Positions 4,868-32,215 of a DNA stretch of 34,953 bases are shown one piece after another. The translations under genes were made by a program, and so were the position numbers. Numbering within the stretch: position 1 is the first letter of the stretch; each line of letters starts with the position of its first letter. The stretch is from the IMG/VR virus record IMGVR_UViG_3300028837_001745, positions 1-34,953 of that record. One strand, written 5' to 3'. The notes under the pieces were generated by a model. The model made no database searches. It had not been told where the DNA came from and saw only the letters and a list, made by a program, of their open reading frames with translations. Source of the stretch: a virus.

Positions 4868-5185
4868 ATGAATAAAACAGAAATAAATGAAAAATTAATA
4901 GGTGTAGTCAAATTAGGATTACCTGATGAAAACATATTATCTATATTAGAAAAAGGTGCGGATATTCATTATAGAACTTTTATCGGATGGACGCCTTTGA
5001 TGTTTGCTATTTATAACGGGCATTTGGAAACTGTACAGTTTTTATTAGATAAAGGAGCAAATGTACATGATGTATATGATGACATATCACTATTGCGATT
5101 TGCTGAAATTGCATTAGATCGTGCTGAACAAATCAGAGATATAATAAGCAAAAAAATTACTATAAGAAATAAAAATCATGACTAA
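4868..5185 (+). CDS. Ankyrin-repeat protein (105 aa)
   Basis: Contains recognisable ankyrin units: a diverged first unit ending ILEKGADIHYR, then a canonical one (GWTPLMFAIYNGHLETVQFLL, with residues Gly-Trp-Thr-Pro-Leu and the final DKGANVHD), and a third degraded unit. Ankyrin repeats bind proteins. In phages they are best known from Wolbachia phage WO and other phages of host-associated bacteria, but they also occur elsewhere. Two to three units without another domain is small for an ankyrin protein. It shares the AAAGAGGTAAAAAATC leader and overlaps the next gene by 8 nt. Confidence 0.75.
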   Translation: MNKTEINEKLIGVVKLGLPDENILSILEKGADIHYRTFIGWTPLMFAIYNGHLETVQFLLDKGANVHDVYDDISLLRFAEIALDRAEQIRDIISKKITIRNKNHD

Positions 5186-5563: not shown

Positions 5564-5590
5564 AAACCTAAATTAAGCTACACTTTCGCT

Positions 5591-6911
5591 ATGAAATTAT
5601 TTAGGCGAAAACAGCAAGTTATTGAAAAAAAGGCACAACCGCCGTGTATGGAATCAATTATACGCCAGTCATTAGTTGAATCTTTATTAACTCAAAAACA
5701 ATATGATCTAGCAGCAGATATAGCTTTACAATACTATTCGATAATAGCTCCTATTGGAATTGGAATTAGGAAGATAGCTAAAGGGGGCGGCAGTATTAAT
5801 CCGTTGATATATGACGAAAACAAAGAGCAATATACTGAGTTTGAACCATTAGAGGATTTATTAGCTAATCCGAGTATGATAGACAAATCATGGAATGAGT
5901 TTGTACAAAAATATATTACATTTTTATTAGTTACTGGTAACAATTATATGGTAGCTAATTTCATTGATTTAAATCAAGAGCCTAAAACGTTGTCGATATT
6001 GCCACCTCAAATAGTTAAACCGATCATTAATGAAGGTGATATAAGCTATTATCAAGTAACTACAGCATCTGGTGTGCCGCTTGAATATCGCAAGCAAATT
6101 ATTAATAAACGAATATTATATGTCGCAACTTTATCTAATGGGACCGATTTATTATGAAATTGAGCAATATCTAGCATCAAGCATACATAATTTATCGATT
6201 TTAAAGCGCGGTGGTACATTGACTGGGACATTTAAAACTCCTGGTTTGTTAACTCAAGAACAACGTGATAGATTGAACCAGCAAATTGCTGATCAATATT
6301 CGGGAGAATTGAATAGCGGTAAATATTTCTTGGCTGAAGGCGGTTTAGATTATCAGCCATCGCAGCAGACTAACAAAGATATGGAATTTATACAGCTTAA
6401 GGCCAAAGATGAGGAAATGGTTTATAAGGCTTTAATGATTCCGCTAGCGCTGATGACAACGGCGGTTATGACGATGTCAAATTTAGAGACCGCAAAATTA
6501 GATTTATATGATGAGGCTATATTACCATTAGTTGATCGTATTTATGCGGATCTAACAAGCTTTTTAATGCCATTTTATGATAATTCTGAGAATTTAATTA
6601 TTTCTTATGACCAAAATAAGATATCTGCATTAGAGCCAAGGCGTATGCAGACGCTGAAAGATTTAGTAGGTTTGGGTGTTTTAACTATCAATGAATTACG
6701 GGCTAAATTGAATTACGAGGCATTAGATGAAGGCGGTGATGCTATCTATGCACCGGCTACCGATATTCCTATTGCGATTGATCAAAATACTACAAATCCA
6801 CAAAAAGCTATTTCACGACAGATCTTTACTAAAGTTTTACAAAAGAATTACGGATCATTATTTGACCAGGCAGAAATTGATAAGATAGCAGATCGGGCTT
6901 ATGGCTGCTAA
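5591..6911 (+). pseudogene. Phage portal protein (HK97 family), frame-disrupted
   Basis: The portal ring at the capsid vertex. The first frame (5591-6157) has the N-terminal portal region (IADIALQYYSIIAPIGIGIR, FVQKYITFLLVTGNNYM) to RILYVATLS. The rest continues in another frame from about 6129-6140 (LMGPIYYEIEQYLASSIHNL) to 6911, including KRGGTLTGTFKTPG, IPLALM and the C-terminal LGVLTINELRAKLNYEALD typical of HK97 portals. Members usually carry a short conserved stretch between these points (YYGLSP-like), which seems missing, so a small deletion is likelier than a single-base indel. Together about 430 residues, normal for the family. Overlaps the next gene by 11 nt. Confidence 0.85.
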
Positions 6912-11175: not shown

Positions 11176-11341
11176 GGGAAAGCTTGAGGGCATAACGGTC
11201 GCAAAGAGCTACACTTAGGAGGAAAAGGTAAGAATAGAGGTAATCGTTATTAAGTCCTCAAAGGTAACCTATAGACGATAATAGCAGATAAAATCCCATC
11301 TGCACACTGAGTATCAAGTGGTTTCTCATAGTGGTAGTACG
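11160..11341 (+). ncRNA. Gene-free block with several RNA hairpins
   Basis: No credible ORF lies between 11176 and 11499. Visible pairings include CCTAAG near 11171 with CTTAGG near 11214, and a 6-bp hairpin GCAGAT/ATCTGC with an 8-nt loop near 11285-11305. A TGAG/CTCA pairing lies near 11310-11330. The block leads directly into the tRNA-like element at 11342 and may be one RNA with it. I could not match it to tmRNA, RNase P or a group I intron core. Confidence 0.4.
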
Positions 11342-11445
11342 ACTCTTATAGCAGAATTGGTAAATGCTCACGTTACCCGCGTGTGTGATGTCAATAAGGT
11401 CGGTAACACTATATGATATTCGGGGTTCGAGTCCCCGTAAGAGTT
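11342..11445 (+). tRNA. 104-nt tRNA-like RNA with an expanded central domain
   Basis: The acceptor ACTCTTA pairs perfectly with TAAGAGT (11438-11444). A Leu-type D arm (GCA-GAATTGGTAAA-TGC) and a T arm (CGGGG-TTCGAGT-CCCCG) are both well formed. Between them are 53 nt where a class II tRNA has about 33. No standard anticodon loop is found: a CACG/CGTG hairpin would give ACC, and an alternative helix GTTACC/GGTAAC encloses 24 nt. It may be a tRNA with an insert, a decayed tRNA-Leu, or a tRNA mimic. Confidence 0.5.
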
Positions 11446-11499
11446 GTACTAAAATATGAATATAAAGATTATTATCGGAGATAAGAGAAGATTTAAATT

Positions 11500-13432: not shown

Positions 13433-13496
13433 TGTGGATAAGTCTGTGGATAACCTGTGGATAAGTCTTGCATTTCCTAAAATTATCTTGTAAGCT
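13433..13496 (+). promoter_or_regulatory. DnaA-box late promoter module 1 (three boxes)
   Basis: Perfect DnaA-box 9-mers TGTGGATAA at 13433-13441, 13445-13453 and 13456-13464, then a 3-nt gap, TTGCAT at 13468-13473, 17 bp, and a weak -10 TAAGCT at 13491-13496. The same geometry occurs at 19567, 28777 and 31833. On the other strand a TTGATT (13427 to 13422), 5 nt from the first box, could serve the minus gene at 13366. A small palindrome AAGATA-GCT-TATCTT lies at 13394-13408 over that promoter. Confidence 0.8.
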
Positions 13497-13528
13497 TATG
13501 GCATATTATTAATTTGAGAGGATTTGAT

Positions 13529-14482: not shown

Positions 14483-15581
14483 TGAAGCTTTAAGCGGAAT
14501 CAAGCAAGCTCAGGATGTCGCTGAACGAAATACTGAGCGTCTAGATGCTTTAGACCAAGAACAAATCAAGAAAATCAGTACAGATAAATCTGTTAATTAT
14601 ACTATTGATTATATGGCAAGCAAATATTTTGCTGGCGCAGATGACATGGATGGAGTTAAAAAAGGATTGCGAAAAAATATGCCTACCAAAGATATGCAGG
14701 TAGGTGTTGATCCACGAGGTGGATATTGGGTTAGGCCTGAAATGTCGAATACTATCATTGATCGAGTATTCGAAACGTCGCCTGTTCGTCAATATGCTAC
14801 TGTAACTAATATAAATTCAGATGCTTTAGAGTTTCCAATTGACGATGAGGATTTAGATGCTGGCTGGGTTGGTGAAACCGATCTTAGACCAAAAACTGGC
14901 ACTCCAGATATTGGCCAGAAATTTATTTATGCAAAGGAAATTTATGCAAATCCTCGTGTGACTCAAAAAATGTTAGATGATGCTGGATTTAATATTGAAG
15001 CATGGTTACAACAGAAGATATCTAATAAATTTATTCGAAAAGAAAATACAGCATTTGTAACTGGTGACGGCAATAAAGTTCCTAGAGGATTTTTAACTTA
15101 TCCAGCTTGGACTACACCAAAAATTTATGAGAGAGGTAAAATTGAGCAAATAGAATCTTCTACAGTTGGTGTTTTAACAAATGGTGATGATGTTAAAAAA
15201 CTTAAAAATAGATTACTTGAAGATTATCAATCACGAGCTATTTTTATGATGAATCGTGAAACTTTTGAGGTCGTTACTACTTTAAAAACCGGTAATGGAG
15301 CATATTTACTTGATCCAAATAGCTTTAAAAATGGTGATACTCAAATATTGCTTGGCAAACCGGTTGTATTTATGAGTGATATGCCTGACATTGCAAGCAA
15401 TGCGTTAGCAATAGCTTATGGTGATTTAAGCACCGCATATACTATTGTTGATCGTATAGGTATCCGAGTTATCCGTGATGTTTATTCAGATAAACCGTGG
15501 ATTAGATATTATACTACCAAGGGTACTGGTGGTGATGTTACTAGTTATGATGCTTTAAAGATTATGAAAATTAAAGCGTAA
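14454..15581 (+). CDS. Major capsid protein, HK97 fold
   Basis: 375 residues with the family landmarks: an N-terminal helical delta-like domain (residues 1-45), DPRGGYWVRPEMSNTIIDRV, the SPVRQYATV segment, ELDAGWVGE-like DEDLDAGWVGETD, then VTGDGNKVPRGFLTY, IFMMNRETF, LLGKPVVFMSDMP and the C-terminal IGIRVIRDVYSDKPWIRYYT. The protease is immediately upstream and the start overlaps it, with GAGGAG before the ATG. No frame break. The delta domain is presumably removed by the protease, by family knowledge. Confidence 0.9.
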   Translation: MSEEIIVKLDEALSGIKQAQDVAERNTERLDALDQEQIKKISTDKSVNYTIDYMASKYFAGADDMDGVKKGLRKNMPTKDMQVGVDPRGGYWVRPEMSNTIIDRVFETSPVRQYATVTNINSDALEFPIDDEDLDAGWVGETDLRPKTGTPDIGQKFIYAKEIYANPRVTQKMLDDAGFNIEAWLQQKISNKFIRKENTAFVTGDGNKVPRGFLTYPAWTTPKIYERGKIEQIESSTVGVLTNGDDVKKLKNRLLEDYQSRAIFMMNRETFEVVTTLKTGNGAYLLDPNSFKNGDTQILLGKPVVFMSDMPDIASNALAIAYGDLSTAYTIVDRIGIRVIRDVYSDKPWIRYYTTKGTGGDVTSYDALKIMKIKA

Positions 15582-19661: not shown

Positions 19662-21185
19662 ATGAGCGGAATACTTAAACCTGTAGTAAAGGGCACAATA
19701 ATCCCAGATACCGAACTTGTCTTTGATGAAAGTCAAAAAATATTATGTGTTGGGCAAATGACTGCGGCCGGAACGGCTACGCCAGGTGAGCTTTATACAT
19801 TAATTGGAAATAATAATGAGCAAAATGCTTTATTTGGTAGCCATTCTCAGTTAGCAATGGTGATTAGGCAAGTAAAAAAATATAACAAAAAGAATAGAAT
19901 TGATGCAATTCCATTAGAAGATTCCGGTACTGGAACTGGGGCTAGCGGAACTATAGTTTTTGACGGAACATCTGCTGGCGCGAATAGTACGATTTATATT
20001 GGAGCTGGTGATTATTTTGATAATCGATATAAAATAGATGTTATAGCGGGAGAAGATCCAACGGCGATAGGAGATAAAGTTGCCGCAGCCGTTACTGCCA
20101 ATACCATATCTCCTGTAAGCGGGACAAATACGACAGGGTCAGTGGGATTCGTATCTATAAATGCAGGCACAATTGGAGATGCAATACCATTATGGGTAGA
20201 GGGATCAATTCCTGATATAACTATAACAATTACAGGTATGACCGGAGGAGCAACTGATCCAACTGTTACCGATATTTTTGATGTTGTCGCAAATATTCGT
20301 TATCAAACTATAGTCTGGCAATATGAGTATGGATTAACTGAATTAACAAGTTTTCTTGATCCGAGATGGAATCCGCCAAATAAAATTTTTGATGGATCTG
20401 GAATTACTACATTTGTCGACACATTATCTAATGTATTGGATGCATTAAATGCCGAAAACGATCAAAATATTGAATTATTTCCTTATCCAAATGTAGATAT
20501 TACAGCATATAAAGGTATTTGGATTCCAACAATGCCTTATGTAGTTTCTGCTCAATTTGCCGCTATCCGTGCTTTAAGATTAACCGAAGGTGCAGATATT
20601 AGTGAATATGTAATCGGGGGCGAAGGAATATTAGATAATTTCGGCGGCATGGCAATAGGTAGTTTACCTTATATGAATACTCCGTTTAAATATCTGCATG
20701 TTGGCGATATAAATCAATTTTGGACTGAAGAAGAGCGTGATGAAATAAAAGAGGCTGGCGGTAGTATTATTGGTAACAATGAGGCGAATGATAAAATAAT
20801 CGCAGATGAAATCGTAACTACCTACAAAAAAAATAATGCTGACGAACCTGATTTAACATTTAAATACTTAAATTATGTCGATACTGTATCTATTTGTCGT
20901 GAATATATGACGACTAATTCACGTGAACGGCATAAGCAATCGCGATTAACATTAGGTGATTTAATACCTAACCGCAATATGGCTAATGCATCTAGTATTT
21001 CTTCTTTCTTAGACGAGCTTTATGTAAATTTAGCAGATCAGGCTTTAGTTCCAAACAGTGAAGATGCAAGAAAATTCTTTAAAAACAACAAGACTGTAAC
21101 AATAAAGTTGAAATTGTTGTTACTGAAAATGTCGCCACCAAGATATCTGATGTTAAATTTTCAAGTGATACTACTGATTATATAG
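19662..21185 (+). CDS. Tail sheath protein, C-terminus lost at a junction
   Basis: The contractile sheath (Mu gpL-like). 507 residues as read, of which the first 480 or so look native. Landmarks include an N-terminal DNA-end segment, an inserted Gly/Thr-rich domain (residues 85-200), PNVDITAYKGIWIPTMPYVV, GGEGILDNFGGMAIGSLPYM, and the C-terminal VPNSEDARKFFKNNKTVTI. After that the frame gives nonsense (KLKLLLLKMSPPRY). Families continue about 20 residues more, so the end is missing and fused out of frame to the next gene. Confidence 0.8.
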   Translation: MSGILKPVVKGTIIPDTELVFDESQKILCVGQMTAAGTATPGELYTLIGNNNEQNALFGSHSQLAMVIRQVKKYNKKNRIDAIPLEDSGTGTGASGTIVFDGTSAGANSTIYIGAGDYFDNRYKIDVIAGEDPTAIGDKVAAAVTANTISPVSGTNTTGSVGFVSINAGTIGDAIPLWVEGSIPDITITITGMTGGATDPTVTDIFDVVANIRYQTIVWQYEYGLTELTSFLDPRWNPPNKIFDGSGITTFVDTLSNVLDALNAENDQNIELFPYPNVDITAYKGIWIPTMPYVVSAQFAAIRALRLTEGADISEYVIGGEGILDNFGGMAIGSLPYMNTPFKYLHVGDINQFWTEEERDEIKEAGGSIIGNNEANDKIIADEIVTTYKKNNADEPDLTFKYLNYVDTVSICREYMTTNSRERHKQSRLTLGDLIPNRNMANASSISSFLDELYVNLADQALVPNSEDARKFFKNNKTVTIKLKLLLLKMSPPRYLMLNFQVILLII

Positions 21186-21361
21186 TAGAAGTATCGCGAG
21201 GTTGGAAAGAATTGCGTAGTTTACATGCTATTCGAATATTTGATCCAGACGGCGAATTTAGTGCAGTCTTTATTGGCATGACGTTAGTTCCTGATCCTGA
21301 ATATAAGGTCTCACAGGATGGAACTGTAGATTTTGAATTTAAAGGTAATCCATCATATTAA
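21101..21361 (+). pseudogene. C-terminal fragment, probably of the tail tube protein
   Basis: A frame open from the sheath junction encodes VEIVVTENVATKISDVKFSS, then VSRGWKELRSLHAIRIFDPD and DPEYKVSQDGTVDFEFKGNP before stopping at 21361. It has no start codon or ribosome binding site of its own. By synteny the gene after a Mu-like sheath is the tail tube, so this is most likely the tube's last 80 or so residues, with its N-terminus deleted. The tube is essential for a contractile tail. Confidence 0.55.
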
Positions 21362-26997: not shown

Positions 26998-28335
26998 ATG
27001 CCAATTACAGTATCAACAACTAGAAAAGAAATCGCAGATAGAATAAGGACAGATGTACAAAATGCATTACCACAGTCAAATCCTTTCTTAAAAGAGTCCT
27101 GGATAGATGAATTAATTAGTGGGCTAGCTGGTCGTGATTTTGACTTATATAAATTTCTTCAATTATCATTTAGACAATTATTTCCTGATACTGCAATTGG
27201 AGTATTTTTAGATAGGTGGGGTAATTTTAAAGGAATAAATAGAAATCCAGCAACAGCAGCCGCAGGTTTAATTACTGCTACAGGTATAGCCGGGTCACTT
27301 GTTCCTATAGCATCTCTCCTGTCAAATCAAGCTGATGTTGTTTACGAAACGCAGGAAAATAAAACGATCTCAAGTCAAACTACAGATGTTGCAACTTTGA
27401 CTAGAGCCGGTTCAACAGTAACAGTTACAATGCCAGCAGATACTCCGCACCATTATGTTGTAGGACTATCACAGACTATTAGCAATGCTGTAAATCCTGA
27501 ATATAATGTAACAGCTCCGGTAACTTCTATTATTTCTGAATTAATTTATACTTATGAAATCAGTACAACACCACCTACGCCTGATGGCGGTGCAAATATT
27601 AAAAGTACGGCTACTTTTGCTAGTATTAACGTAAGATCTCAAGTTTTTGGCGAAGATACAAATGCTGCAAATGGCGACATTTTAACTTTTGCAAGTGCTA
27701 TTTCTGGCGTAAATGCAACTGCTACTGTGCAATTTCCTGAAATATCTGGAGGGACTGATATAGAAAGCGATGACGATTTCTCAAAACGAATACAAGAAGC
27801 ATATCAAAATCCTAATGCTAATTTTAATATTGCTACTATTATAAGTGTAGCTAAAACTGTGCCAGGCGTAACAAGGGTATGGGTGCAACCAATTACGCCA
27901 GGAGTGGGCGATACTACTGTATATTTTGTTAGAGATGATGATGGTGCGGGTTTTGGTATAGACATCATTCCTGATGGTCAAGAAGTAGCTGATGTTAAAG
28001 CAATTCTTGATGAACTTGCTCCGCCTAATATGGATCTTACTAATGATTTTATTGTAGCTGCTCCAACACCTCTTACTGTTAATTTTGTATTTACAGCGAT
28101 TGATCCAGACACAAGCACTATGCGGGATGCTCTTTTTGAGAATTTGAAGCAGTTTTTTAAGGAAGGTGTTGATGTTGGATTTAATATTAAAGAGGATGGT
28201 TATCGAGCAATAATTTTTCAAACAGTTGATCCTAATTCAGGGCAACCATTAAAATCATTTATCTTAAGTTCGCCGGTGGGTGATATTGCAATCGATACCG
28301 ATGAATTAGGCATTTTAGGAACAGTAACTTTTTAG
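26998..28335 (+). CDS. Baseplate J protein (Mu gp47-like) with an extra beta domain
   Basis: 445 residues. N-terminal IDELISGLAGRDFDLYKFLQ, then FPDTAIGVFLDRWGNFKGI. The J core resumes with DIESDDDFSKRIQEAYQNPN and VPGVTRVWVQPITPGVGDTT, as in gp47. Residues 92-245 hold the usual gp47 beta region enlarged by an extra module (VATLTRAGSTVTVTMPADTP to PPTPDGGAN). That same segment is duplicated in the secreted minus-strand gene at 30692-31285. Confidence 0.88.
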   Translation: MPITVSTTRKEIADRIRTDVQNALPQSNPFLKESWIDELISGLAGRDFDLYKFLQLSFRQLFPDTAIGVFLDRWGNFKGINRNPATAAAGLITATGIAGSLVPIASLLSNQADVVYETQENKTISSQTTDVATLTRAGSTVTVTMPADTPHHYVVGLSQTISNAVNPEYNVTAPVTSIISELIYTYEISTTPPTPDGGANIKSTATFASINVRSQVFGEDTNAANGDILTFASAISGVNATATVQFPEISGGTDIESDDDFSKRIQEAYQNPNANFNIATIISVAKTVPGVTRVWVQPITPGVGDTTVYFVRDDDGAGFGIDIIPDGQEVADVKAILDELAPPNMDLTNDFIVAAPTPLTVNFVFTAIDPDTSTMRDALFENLKQFFKEGVDVGFNIKEDGYRAIIFQTVDPNSGQPLKSFILSSPVGDIAIDTDELGILGTVTF

Positions 28336-28776: not shown

Positions 28777-28828
28777 TGTGGATAACCTGTGGATAACTCT
28801 TGATTTTTACCAGAATTTCTTATATCAT
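28777..28828 (+). promoter_or_regulatory. DnaA-box late promoter module 3 (two boxes)
   Basis: Boxes TGTGGATAA at 28777-28785 and 28788-28796, a 3-nt gap, TTGATT at 28800-28805, 17 bp, and TATCAT at 28823-28828. Starts just after the gp48 stop. Drives the fibre gene at 28860. Confidence 0.85.
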
Positions 28829-28859
28829 TGATCTATTAATCTAATAAGAGGTCTTAATA

Positions 28860-30074
28860 ATGAGAGATATCCCAAATAAAAGTAATGATGAGTTTTATAT
28901 TCCTGCCGAATTTAATTCTTTTAAAAATGCATCTCAAAATACTATTATCAGCAGCGACCAAACGTTAAGCGAAGCAGATGCATTTCAATTAGCTAAAGCA
29001 TTAAGTAATTATGCTGGAATTGGTAATTTTTATGTCCAAACAGGTTCGCCTAATACTTATACTTTATCGGCAATTTCGCCATTTAAAGCTCCAAGCAAGA
29101 TATTTGATGGATTAACGGTTAGAACGAGAATTGTTGATACTAACACCGGCGCATCTACATTAGATTGGAACGGAACTGGCGCAAAAGCAATCAAAAAAAA
29201 TCGTGGGGTAGATGATTTAGTAGCAGGTGACTTGGTAACTGATGATTATCCTATATTTGTATATGAATTAAGCAGCAATATTTGGAATTTAATTACAGAG
29301 CCCATTGAGAGCAGTTATCCTTTAGGTTATTTGAGTGGATTCAAAATTGAACAAGATAGCGGCGATACAGCTCATGATATTAAAATTTATGAAGGAGCTG
29401 CCAGAGGTCAAAAGGATTTAGTTGATCTAAAAATACCTGTTGGATCTACAATTATTAAACAAATTGATGTTGATTGGGTAGAAGGAACGAATCAAGGCGG
29501 ATTTCCAAGCGGATTAACGTTAACCGCTGACACATGGTATCATGTTTTTGTTATTACAAAGCCTAATGGTTTTACAGATGCAGGTGTTGATTCTGCGACT
29601 GATGCAACAAATTTATTAGCTGATGCTACAGATTATATAGATTATAAAAGGACTGGTTCTATTTTGGTCGATGGTAGCAGTAATATTATAGATTTTGTCC
29701 AAACACTTACTATAGGACAACGTTTGACTTACTGGAAAGTAGATCAACAAATTAGCAATTCTAACCCAGGAATATCAGCGGTAACTAGAGCAATTAGTAC
29801 GCCTTTAGGTATACAAGTTTTAGCTCATTTGGCTGTTTATCTTGATTCAGACGATTCTAGTGCAAATATAAATGGTCGTATATATGCGGTAGATGAACCG
29901 GTAGGTACTGACTTTAATCATAATATTCAGGCTGGTTATATAGCTACAACAGATGTGGCAGGTTCTTCAGATATAATGGTTAAAACAGATCTTTTAAGTC
30001 AAATAAAATATATAATAACCGCCACCAGTGCGGGCACGAGAATGCAAATAGAAACAAGAGGCTGGATTGAATAG
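28860..30074 (+). CDS. Tail fibre-type protein
   Basis: 404 residues, beta-rich with a fibre-like pattern: FQLAKALSNYAGIGNFYVQT, the TYTLSAISPFKAPSKIFDGL segment, then TRIVDTNTGASTLDWNGTGA, typical of fibre shaft proteins. It stands alone in its own unit with the DnaA-box promoter, after the baseplate genes. Host-receptor binding is likely. It is the last plus-strand gene before the two minus-strand morons. Confidence 0.75.
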   Translation: MRDIPNKSNDEFYIPAEFNSFKNASQNTIISSDQTLSEADAFQLAKALSNYAGIGNFYVQTGSPNTYTLSAISPFKAPSKIFDGLTVRTRIVDTNTGASTLDWNGTGAKAIKKNRGVDDLVAGDLVTDDYPIFVYELSSNIWNLITEPIESSYPLGYLSGFKIEQDSGDTAHDIKIYEGAARGQKDLVDLKIPVGSTIIKQIDVDWVEGTNQGGFPSGLTLTADTWYHVFVITKPNGFTDAGVDSATDATNLLADATDYIDYKRTGSILVDGSSNIIDFVQTLTIGQRLTYWKVDQQISNSNPGISAVTRAISTPLGIQVLAHLAVYLDSDDSSANINGRIYAVDEPVGTDFNHNIQAGYIATTDVAGSSDIMVKTDLLSQIKYIITATSAGTRMQIETRGWIE

Positions 30075-30691: not shown

Positions 30692-31285
30692 TTATTGTAC
30701 AGTAGCAGTTGCCTCTACTCCTGCAATTGCTGATTCAAAAACCAATATTTCGCCAGTAACTAAATTTGGTACTTTATGAATATAATAAGAATTGTTGGAT
30801 GTATAAGTTTTTGTAGTTTTTGGTTTAACTGTAAGACTTGCAAATACAGCTGTACTTTTAATATTTGCACCACCATCAGGTGTCGGTGGCGTAGTATTAA
30901 TTTTATAAGTATAACTTAATTTTGATATAACAGAAGTCACCGGAGCAGTTACATTATATTCAGGATTTGTGGCATTACTAATGGTCTGTGATAGTCCTAC
31001 AACATAATGATGCGGAGTATCAGCTGGCATTGTAACTGTTACTGTTGATCCGGATCTTGTTAAAGTTGCAACATCTGTTATATGTTTTTCTATTGTTTTA
31101 TTTTCTAGCGTCTCATATACGGAGCCATCTTTACTTGATAAAAGATATGCTTTTGGTATAATTGCTCCGCTTATACCTGTTGTAGTCATAAACCTTACTC
31201 TCGTTGATTTTTCAATTGCGAAGACGTTTGCATTGATTATAAACATAAAAATGAATAGAATTATTTGTAATTGTAATTTTCTCAT
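30692..31285 (-). CDS. Secreted copy of the baseplate J beta domain (moron)
   Basis: 197 residues. Residues 1-23 are a Sec signal peptide (KLQLQIILFIFMFIINAN, then VFA as the cleavage site). From residue 35 to the end at 197 it aligns with residues about 92-245 of this phage's baseplate J (TTTGISG with TATGIAG, down to ATATVQ). The central 80 residues (DVATLT to KSTAVFAS) are about 90 percent identical. It thus looks like a domain taken from the tail and targeted for export. An AAAGGAG site precedes the ATG. Confidence 0.8.
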   Translation of the reverse strand: MRKLQLQIILFIFMFIINANVFAIEKSTRVRFMTTTGISGAIIPKAYLLSSKDGSVYETLENKTIEKHITDVATLTRSGSTVTVTMPADTPHHYVVGLSQTISNATNPEYNVTAPVTSVISKLSYTYKINTTPPTPDGGANIKSTAVFASLTVKPKTTKTYTSNNSYYIHKVPNLVTGEILVFESAIAGVEATATVQ

Positions 31286-31336
31286 AAAATTCTCCTTTAA
31301 TTGATTGATTAATTTATTAATATTTACACGAAATTA

Positions 31337-31369
31337 CTATAACATACAAACCTTAAGGAAACCTTAAAT
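31337..31369 (-). promoter_or_regulatory. OmpR/PmrA-type direct-repeat promoter for the secreted genes
   Basis: Read on the minus strand: TTTAAG (31369-31364), 5 nt, CTTAAG (31358-31353), 10 nt, then TATAGT (31342-31337). There is no -35 hexamer; the two half-sites sit in its place. This matches the PmrA box YTTAAK-N5-YTTAAK and the usual 10-bp distance of such boxes from the -10. Start expected near 31330, about 45 nt before the ATG. Confidence 0.65.
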
Positions 31370-31484
31370 GAGTTGAATAAATATTAATATATTAATAAAT
31401 ACTTTCAATTTGCGAATTTTATTTAAATAAAGTATTACTGTGACCTGTGGATTACATTAACAGAATGGTTTTCGCAGTAAGCCG

Positions 31485-31620
31485 CTTAGTGTAGAATTGA
31501 ACTAGTTAAGTGTTGTTTTTTGGGTAATTAAGTGTAGCGTTTTTATTAAGTGTAGCAATAAGCCTATTTAAGTGTAGCGTTTTTGGTTATTAAGTGTAGA
31601 AAAAATATAATTAAGTGTAG
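31485..31620 (+). repeat. Phased iterons (TTAAGTGTAG), seven copies
   Basis: Perfect copies at 31528, 31546, 31568, 31590 and 31611; degenerate copies near 31485 and 31506. Spacing is 18-22 bp, mostly 21-22, i.e. two helical turns, so the copies face the same side of the DNA. A DnaA-box-like TGTGGATTA lies at about 31445 and two perfect boxes at 31833-31852. The layout is that of an iteron replication origin or of a large regulatory array. Confidence 0.8.
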
Positions 31621-31641
31621 AAAATTTAGTTGGACTGTGAA

Positions 31642-31702
31642 TACGCAAATTGCGCACTTAAACTACGCAGGCTACGCAAATTGCGCACTTGAACTACGCA
31701 AA
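31642..31702 (+). repeat. Two 31-bp direct repeats (TACGCAAATTGCGCACTT...)
   Basis: TACGCAAATTGCGCACTT begins at 31642 and again at 31673. Each is followed by AACTACGCA after one variable base. The copies share the centre GCAAATTGC, itself near-palindromic. They lie between the iterons and the hairpins at 31725 and 31772. Confidence 0.75.
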
Positions 31703-31724
31703 CCGTTCATAGATTATTCTTAGC

Positions 31725-31807
31725 GAGTAAAAAGGTACAATGCATGTACTTTTTTACTCTCTAAATTTTATGGTGTTTTAGGGGTTAAATTTTTGACCTA
31801 AAACACC
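31725..31807 (+). terminator. Two strong hairpins in the non-coding region
   Basis: The first, 31725-31759, is a 15-bp stem with one G-T pair and loop ATGCA. The second, 31772-31807, is an 11-bp perfect stem GGTGTTTTAGG / CCTAAAACACC with a 14-nt loop, followed by TTTAAATTT. Either could end transcription or be part of an origin structure. They separate the iterons from module 4. Confidence 0.55.
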
Positions 31808-31832
31808 TTTAAATTTATAAAAATATTTTGCC

Positions 31833-31884
31833 TGTGGATAACCTGTGGATAACTCTTGAGTTTAAGCAAAATAATCGATATACT
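31833..31884 (+). promoter_or_regulatory. DnaA-box late promoter module 4 (two boxes)
   Basis: Boxes TGTGGATAA at 31833-31841 and 31844-31852, a 3-nt gap, TTGAGT at 31856-31861, 17 bp, and TATACT at 31879-31884, the best -10 of the four modules. Drives 31919-34953 and is close to the iteron array. Confidence 0.85.
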
Positions 31885-31918
31885 ATAAGCATCTGTTCAA
31901 GCAAAATAGGACAAAATT

Positions 31919-32215
31919 ATGGCAAAATTATTAGATAATGTTTCTGTTGATACTGACGGTACACCGGATCTGGGAGATGGCGCAGGCAGAGGTTTGGCAA
32001 TTTGGGCAACTACATGGGGTAGCGGAACAGTTACTATTCAGATTTCACCTGATAATAAAGTTACTTGGGTTACGGCTACTATAGGTGGCAATCCAGCAGC
32101 ATTTACGGCTAATGCTGTTAGATATATTATAAAAATCGGCCAAGGGCAATGGATTAGAGCCACATTAACTGGCTCAAGCGGGGCGGTTGATGTTAATGCT
32201 GAGACATTTCAGTAA
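31919..32215 (+). CDS. Small virion-type beta protein (98 aa)
   Basis: 98 residues, Gly/Thr-rich, with GRGLAIWATTWGSGTVTIQI then VRYIIKIGQGQWIRATL. Single-domain beta proteins of this type occur before phage tail fibres and may be decoration or fibre-base proteins. No family assigned. Its stop overlaps the next ATG (TAATG). Confidence 0.55.
   Translation: MAKLLDNVSVDTDGTPDLGDGAGRGLAIWATTWGSGTVTIQISPDNKVTWVTATIGGNPAAFTANAVRYIIKIGQGQWIRATLTGSSGAVDVNAETFQ

Follow-up and report, generated by a model that had tools for sequence, protein, structure and literature searches.

The window analysed here, 34,953 bases long, is a linear viral contig that holds part of a myophage genome. It reads in the order terminase, portal, Mu-F-like protein, three tRNAs, head protease, capsid, sheath, tape measure, baseplate and tail fibres. 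Apart from small excisionase-like or HTH_17 ORFs, nothing in the contig was recognisable as a gene for replication, integration or lysogeny, indicating that the early region is probably missing, and every statement made below about an absent initiator is limited accordingly. Three structural genes contain an apparent frameshift (terminase, 1691-2949; portal, 5591-6911; sheath, 19662-21361), which may reflect consensus or assembly errors or a decaying prophage and calls for caution in over-reading single bases of the contig. At 14581-14585 the capsid gene is ~56 codons short of that of two related contigs, L003 and L004 (375 vs 431 amino acids). The Pfam matches of small ORFs between 3000 and 13000 include ankyrin repeats, an HTH_17 domain and a protein resembling Tad2 (Thoeris anti-defence), two ORFs match a PHROG excisionase family, and a tRNA-like sequence with an unusual insert, called by neither ARAGORN nor Rfam, occupies 11330-11450. 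Protein-based searches yielded as relatives only the short contigs L003, L004 and L183, none of which reach the locus described below. A host search using the capsid and baseplate J proteins recovered distant prophages at 37-46% identity (baseplate J 37%, capsid 46%) from a single small-genome order of the phylum sampled. Neither the repeat array nor the promoter motif described below was found in the prophage-matched genomes, and these protein similarities provide only a hint of a link to prophages of that order.

The locus under study is a gap between divergent transcription units, flanked by secreted-protein genes on the left and a small tail-region gene on the right. The adjoining leftward gene (30692-31285, minus strand) starts like a signal peptide and continues as a copy of the baseplate J internal domain, its product being 66% identical over 166 amino acids to residues 91-245 of the protein encoded at 26998-28335; it may be a moron that blocks a receptor, or else a secreted decoy that mimics the baseplate domain of the phage itself. 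The following features were delineated in and around the gap:

31286-31918 (no strand): divergent, gene-free intergenic region of 633 bp with 28.8% GC, from ORF lists and base composition
31255-31436 (no strand): the most AT-rich stretch of the contig, a DUE-like candidate, from a GC ranking over the contig
31446-31454 (plus strand): single imperfect DnaA box, TGTGGATTA
31470-31495 (plus strand): 26-bp TTTCGCAGTAAGCCGCTTAGTGTAGA (quasi-palindrome CAGTAAGCCGCTTAGTG) at the left end of the array, from alignment, window search and viral scan
31485-31620 (plus strand): array of seven 10-bp repeats (five exact TTAAGTGTAG, one TTAAGTGTTG and one CTTAGTGTAG) at spacings of 21, 22, 18, 22, 22 and 21 bp
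31642-31700 (no strand): two 28-bp direct repeats, TACGCAAATTGCGCACTTRAACTACGCA, starting 31 bp apart at 31642 and 31673, 96% identical
31720-31764 (no strand): strong hairpin with a 15-bp core stem, terminator-like on the plus strand, DNA-fold z of -7.5
31762-31817 (no strand): second strong hairpin with 21-nt arms, DNA-fold z of -5.1
31833-31884 (plus strand): DnaA-box pair (31833 and 31844), then 3 bp and TTGAGT-17-TATACT, upstream of the gene at 31919

The preliminary description had reported a gene-free, AT-rich stretch of ~630 bp holding seven repeats mostly 21-22 bp apart, followed by direct repeats, two hairpins and two DnaA boxes, and all of these elements were recovered at the expected positions and spacings. 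It had overlooked a palindromic site bordering the array on the left and eight further DnaA boxes in the contig. The GC content of the gap compares with about 34% contig-wide, and the sole ORF within it is an unconvincing one of 46 amino acids starting with TTG. The AT-rich stretch, which overlaps the 5' end of the leftward gene, contains the 70-bp windows starting at 31367 and 31255, with GC falling to 12.9%.

The exact copies of the repeat start at 31528, 31546, 31568, 31590 and 31611, preceded by the variants at 31506 (one mismatch) and 31485 (two mismatches). Only 10 of the about 21 bp in each repeat unit are conserved. Spacings of about two helical turns place the repeats on a shared helix face (R=0.87 for a 10.5-bp period; compared with random spacings of 15-27, p=0.0004). 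A single 10-mer occurs five times within 120 bp, whereas no 10-mer exceeded two such copies in simulated contigs (n=60), and the contig has nine matches with up to one mismatch where 3.15 (sd 1.71) would be expected, a count of nine being reached in none of 100 shuffles. Elsewhere in the contig, matches to a weight matrix of the repeat hardly exceed background, so the isolated copies at 5578, 11209, 26221 and 27841 look like noise; on the same grounds a dispersed regulon of the repeat was rejected. Apart from one mismatched pair the 26-mer would be a palindrome, its right half being the first, variant repeat and resembling the repeat itself. The 28-bp direct repeats hold CACTTAA or CACTTGA, which may be a degenerate inverted half-site.

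The strongest new evidence came from a pattern scan of IMG/VR, which identified a second contig with the same combination of elements. This contig, L001, is 6.5 kb long, encodes a P22-like portal and is of podovirus type; a tblastx comparison with the window gave nothing at E 1e-3. An intergenic region of L001 contains TTTCGCAGTAAGCCGCTTAGTGTAGA, whose 26 bp all agree with the left end of the array in the window, followed by five TAAGTGTAG sites (three inverted, two direct); CTTAGTGTAG is present as well. The module also holds 77 bp with a GC content of 19% and, 77 bp away, two DnaA boxes in tandem. In both contigs the most AT-rich 70-bp stretch adjoins the array, on opposite sides in the two. 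The flanking genes in L001 are a small Lys-rich gene and one resembling a scaffold gene, and are unrelated to those flanking the module in the window, which makes a genome-level cis function the simplest inference; the module thus probably serves the genome as a whole and not one neighbouring gene.

These two are the only contigs found to carry the module. Among viral contigs the exact 22-mer core was detected in L001 only, in a scan that may omit records very near the window, and an exact 18-mer of the 26-mer core is absent from GTDB species genomes. The TAAGTGTAG pair pattern likewise had L001 as its sole true match among viral contigs, the remainder being isolated pairs or unrelated tandem repeats; the GTDB matches were also isolated pairs and unrelated tandem repeats (e.g. 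L161, L181), mostly in Bacteroidota. A protein-based search with the L001 portal returned no close relatives. Nucleotide searches of plasmids and phages for relatives of the array yielded low-complexity or chance DnaA-box matches only, and neither the named plasmids, the named phages nor the GTDB genomes showed a related array or a homologous one beside a rep gene.

The boxes at 31833 and 31844 are exact copies of TGTGGATAA and precede a rightward promoter at 31856. The preliminary description had counted them as parts of an origin, but the same geometry recurs at three other promoter clusters away from any array:

13433-13500 (plus strand): three boxes, then TCTTGC, upstream of the head protease gene at 13514; place conserved in L003 and L004
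19567-19630 (plus strand): three boxes, then TCTTGATT-TATATCAT, upstream of the tail sheath gene at 19662
28777-28835 (plus strand): two boxes, upstream of the tail gene at 28860; three boxes at the homologous place in L183

Exact TGTGGATAA occurs ten times in the contig against 0.41 expected, always on the plus strand and always intergenic, even though intergenic DNA makes up only ~10% of the contig. The ten copies form four head-to-tail clusters of two or three at 11-12 bp, upstream of the genes at 13514, 19662, 28860 and 31919, all structural or late-region genes. In every cluster (4/4) the last box lies 3 bp before a TTG that starts a sigma70-like -35 hexamer, and in three of the four a -10 like TATATCAT or TATACT follows, the 13433 cluster being weaker. 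The sequence agrees with the DnaA consensus TTATnCACA, and the 2-3 bp between boxes resembles oriC arrays (PMC5742627). The box-to-promoter geometry is retained in the relatives, with three boxes in L183 at the 28777 place and four in L003 and three in L004 at the 13433 place. The variant boxes of L003 and L004 (TGTGTATAA, TGTGAATAA and, three times in L004, TGTGCATAA) differ in all five cases at the degenerate position of TTATnCACA, for which p~2e-5 by a simple, hand-calculated one-in-nine argument, or ~1e-3 if the three L004 changes are counted as one event. We consider it very likely that the boxes at 31833 and 31844 belong to a promoter family of this phage and therefore provide no independent support for an origin. 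The restriction of variation to the degenerate position points to DnaA-type regulation of late promoters, and DnaA itself is the probable, if putative, ligand of these boxes.

Viral contigs commonly carry DnaA-box pairs in tandem (at least 120 stretches, L022-L141), usually without a promoter at the offset seen in the window. Most of the ~149 tandem box clusters among viral contigs lack a promoter at 3 bp, that offset being essentially confined to the window phage and its relatives, and box pairs abutting a -35 were accordingly rejected as a general phage feature. Stimulation of lambda pR by DnaA offers a precedent for its action on a phage promoter (PMC7466680). Known DnaA-regulated promoters (lambda pR, and E. 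coli and Borrelia genes with DnaA boxes) share with the present ones TTATnCACA boxes at sigma70-type promoters; unlike them, two to four head-to-tail boxes here abut the -35 of no fewer than four late or structural promoters in one phage. L001 departs from the known cases differently, its two box pairs being reversed and placed just downstream of a TATACT -10, as would befit repression. These pairs occur at two promoters (2135-2163 and 5104-5132) that share TATACTCGAAG followed by two reverse DnaA boxes, one of them in the portal gene's 5' leader, the other upstream of the gene at 2008. In the open-access papers covered, no account came up of phage structural promoters that carry tandem boxes.

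As a single explanation, the array is best, though tentatively, read as an iteron-type origin of a phage, with its initiator gene somewhere beyond the contig. This reading rests on the phased half-sites, the inverted-repeat site, the adjoining AT-rich stretch and the presence of the same combination in an unrelated phage. Known iteron origins comprise 2-7 iterons, mostly of 17-22 bp, a DNA unwinding element and often DnaA boxes, and cooperativity between iterons depends on helical phasing (PMC4980987). The window array falls within this range: iteron plasmid origins (R6K, F, P1 oriR, RK2 and pPS10, with Rep_3-type or TrfA initiators) likewise have 2-7 phased repeats, with a period of 21-22 bp in R6K and pPS10, an adjoining AT-rich stretch, nearby DnaA boxes and an inverted-repeat site related to the direct repeats. 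It differs from them in the conservation of only part of each repeat, in lying on a contig without a recognised rep gene and in having boxes that belong to a promoter family recurring in the genome, and L001 differs in the mixed orientation of its sites. Lambda-type origins consist of iterons and an AT-rich tract, helped by the DnaA-stimulated pR (PMC7466680). In the window, as in these O-protein iteron origins, the repeats lie beside an AT-rich tract with a DnaA-box promoter close by; in contrast, they are intergenic in the late region and not inside an initiator gene, and the contig encodes no O-like or P-like protein.

Under the origin reading, a phage-encoded candidate initiator, its gene situated outside the partial contig, would bind the seven same-face half-sites and the palindromic end site and so help to open the adjoining AT-rich DNA, the candidate unwinding element, where the replication helicase would then load. 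The box pair at 31833 is read primarily as an element of the promoter serving the gene at 31919. At this promoter and the three others of its kind, transcription is probably controlled by host DnaA, or by another protein with its specificity, that binds head-to-tail next to the -35, conceivably as an activator and not a repressor. DnaA held beside the array could also aid the origin, directly or through transcriptional activation in the manner of pR at ori-lambda. DnaA boxes are common but not obligatory in iteron-type origins, and promoter-type boxes therefore do not exclude membership of an origin.

Several observations count against an origin. The array lies among tail and late genes in the window and between portal-side genes and a scaffold-like gene in L001, no replication genes stand beside it in either, the AT-rich stretch changes sides between the two phages, and intergenic DNA is AT-rich anyway. 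The box pair recurs where there is no array, and the module is known from just two contigs. The preliminary description had suggested looking for an initiator gene and for a change of GC skew. The contig encodes no recognisable Rep protein, initiator, helicase and primase families being absent among the 53 ORFs scanned; a second comparison of the contig ORFs likewise gave none among the best 25 of 68 protein families. The skew is positive in nearly all of the contig and does not switch at the array, a weak test as skew tracks gene strand. A GC-skew change is not a strict defining feature of an origin, and phage genomes need not show one. The layout had been called that of a plasmid-type origin: the phased repeats and AT-rich neighbour support this in part, but the boxes are a recurrent promoter element and no similar plasmid array was found. 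With no initiator gene found and no skew switch either, the label is unproven, and the data reach as far as a phage origin or another cis-acting module.

The main rival, somewhat unlikely in our estimation, is that the array is an operator or enhancer at which a phage regulator binds the repeats cooperatively to control adjoining promoters, namely the rightward DnaA-box promoter and, in the window, also the leftward secreted-protein genes. The position of the array upstream of a DnaA-box promoter in both phages and between divergent transcription units in the window accords with such a function, as a palindromic site and the mixed orientation in L001 would with a repressor or activator. The genes so controlled would, however, be unrelated in the two phages, the distance from array to -35 differs (about 40 bp in L001 and about 235 bp in the window), the other DnaA-box promoters of both contigs lack an array, and no dispersed sites occur elsewhere in the contig.

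Less probable still is a phage-plasmid partition or copy-control locus, that is, a centromere-like or incompatibility-type array binding a segregation or Rep protein without firing replication. Iteron arrays without a rep gene do exist, P1 incA being an example, and the repeats here both lack an adjoining rep gene and belong to a module independent of its neighbour genes. Against this, no ParA, ParB or ParM-type gene is present among the Pfam matches, the sheath has no match in plasmids, and neither phage shows evidence of a plasmid-like nature. A recombination or transposition site, either an attP with arm-type sites or a transposase-bound end reflecting a shared recombinase or integration target, is very unlikely: the 26-bp quasi-palindrome with 10-bp repeats in both orientations does resemble a core with arm sites, and the conserved sequence crosses phage types, but the repeats all fall to one side of the 'core', no integrase or recombinase is nearby, and integration would split late gene blocks. 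Moreover, GTDB species genomes lack the exact 18-mer, and the one match with one mismatch among 344 genomes of one order is without an array and equals chance. A packaging (cos or pac) site is not favoured, the array not being near the terminase in the window. An RNA element was rejected, no Rfam family reaching its gathering score in the region and the mixed orientation of sites in L001 indicating double-stranded DNA sites. Short-spaced TAAGTGTAG pairs do arise by chance or in unrelated tandem repeats elsewhere, but a chance or functionless simple tandem repeat is extremely improbable here given a copy number and phasing beyond chance and, in effect refuting it, the 26 identical bp in the unrelated L001.

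If the array is an origin, it would represent a transferable phage replication module seen without its initiator, and would provide a handle for finding that initiator. On a broader and distinctly more doubtful view, a mobile, initiator-less origin or control module, comprising the palindromic site, the phased TAAGTGTAG array, the AT-rich tract and a DnaA-box promoter, would have been exchanged between unrelated phages, in a lineage that controls its structural-gene promoters by tandem DnaA boxes fused to the -35, with replication and late transcription linked through the supply of host DnaA. The promoter finding, of head-to-tail boxes fixed before the -35 and conserved as expected of DnaA binding, may outweigh the array in importance. 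If it is true, host DnaA would act, in a capacity that we did not find described in the open-access literature, as a broad late-gene regulator for a phage.
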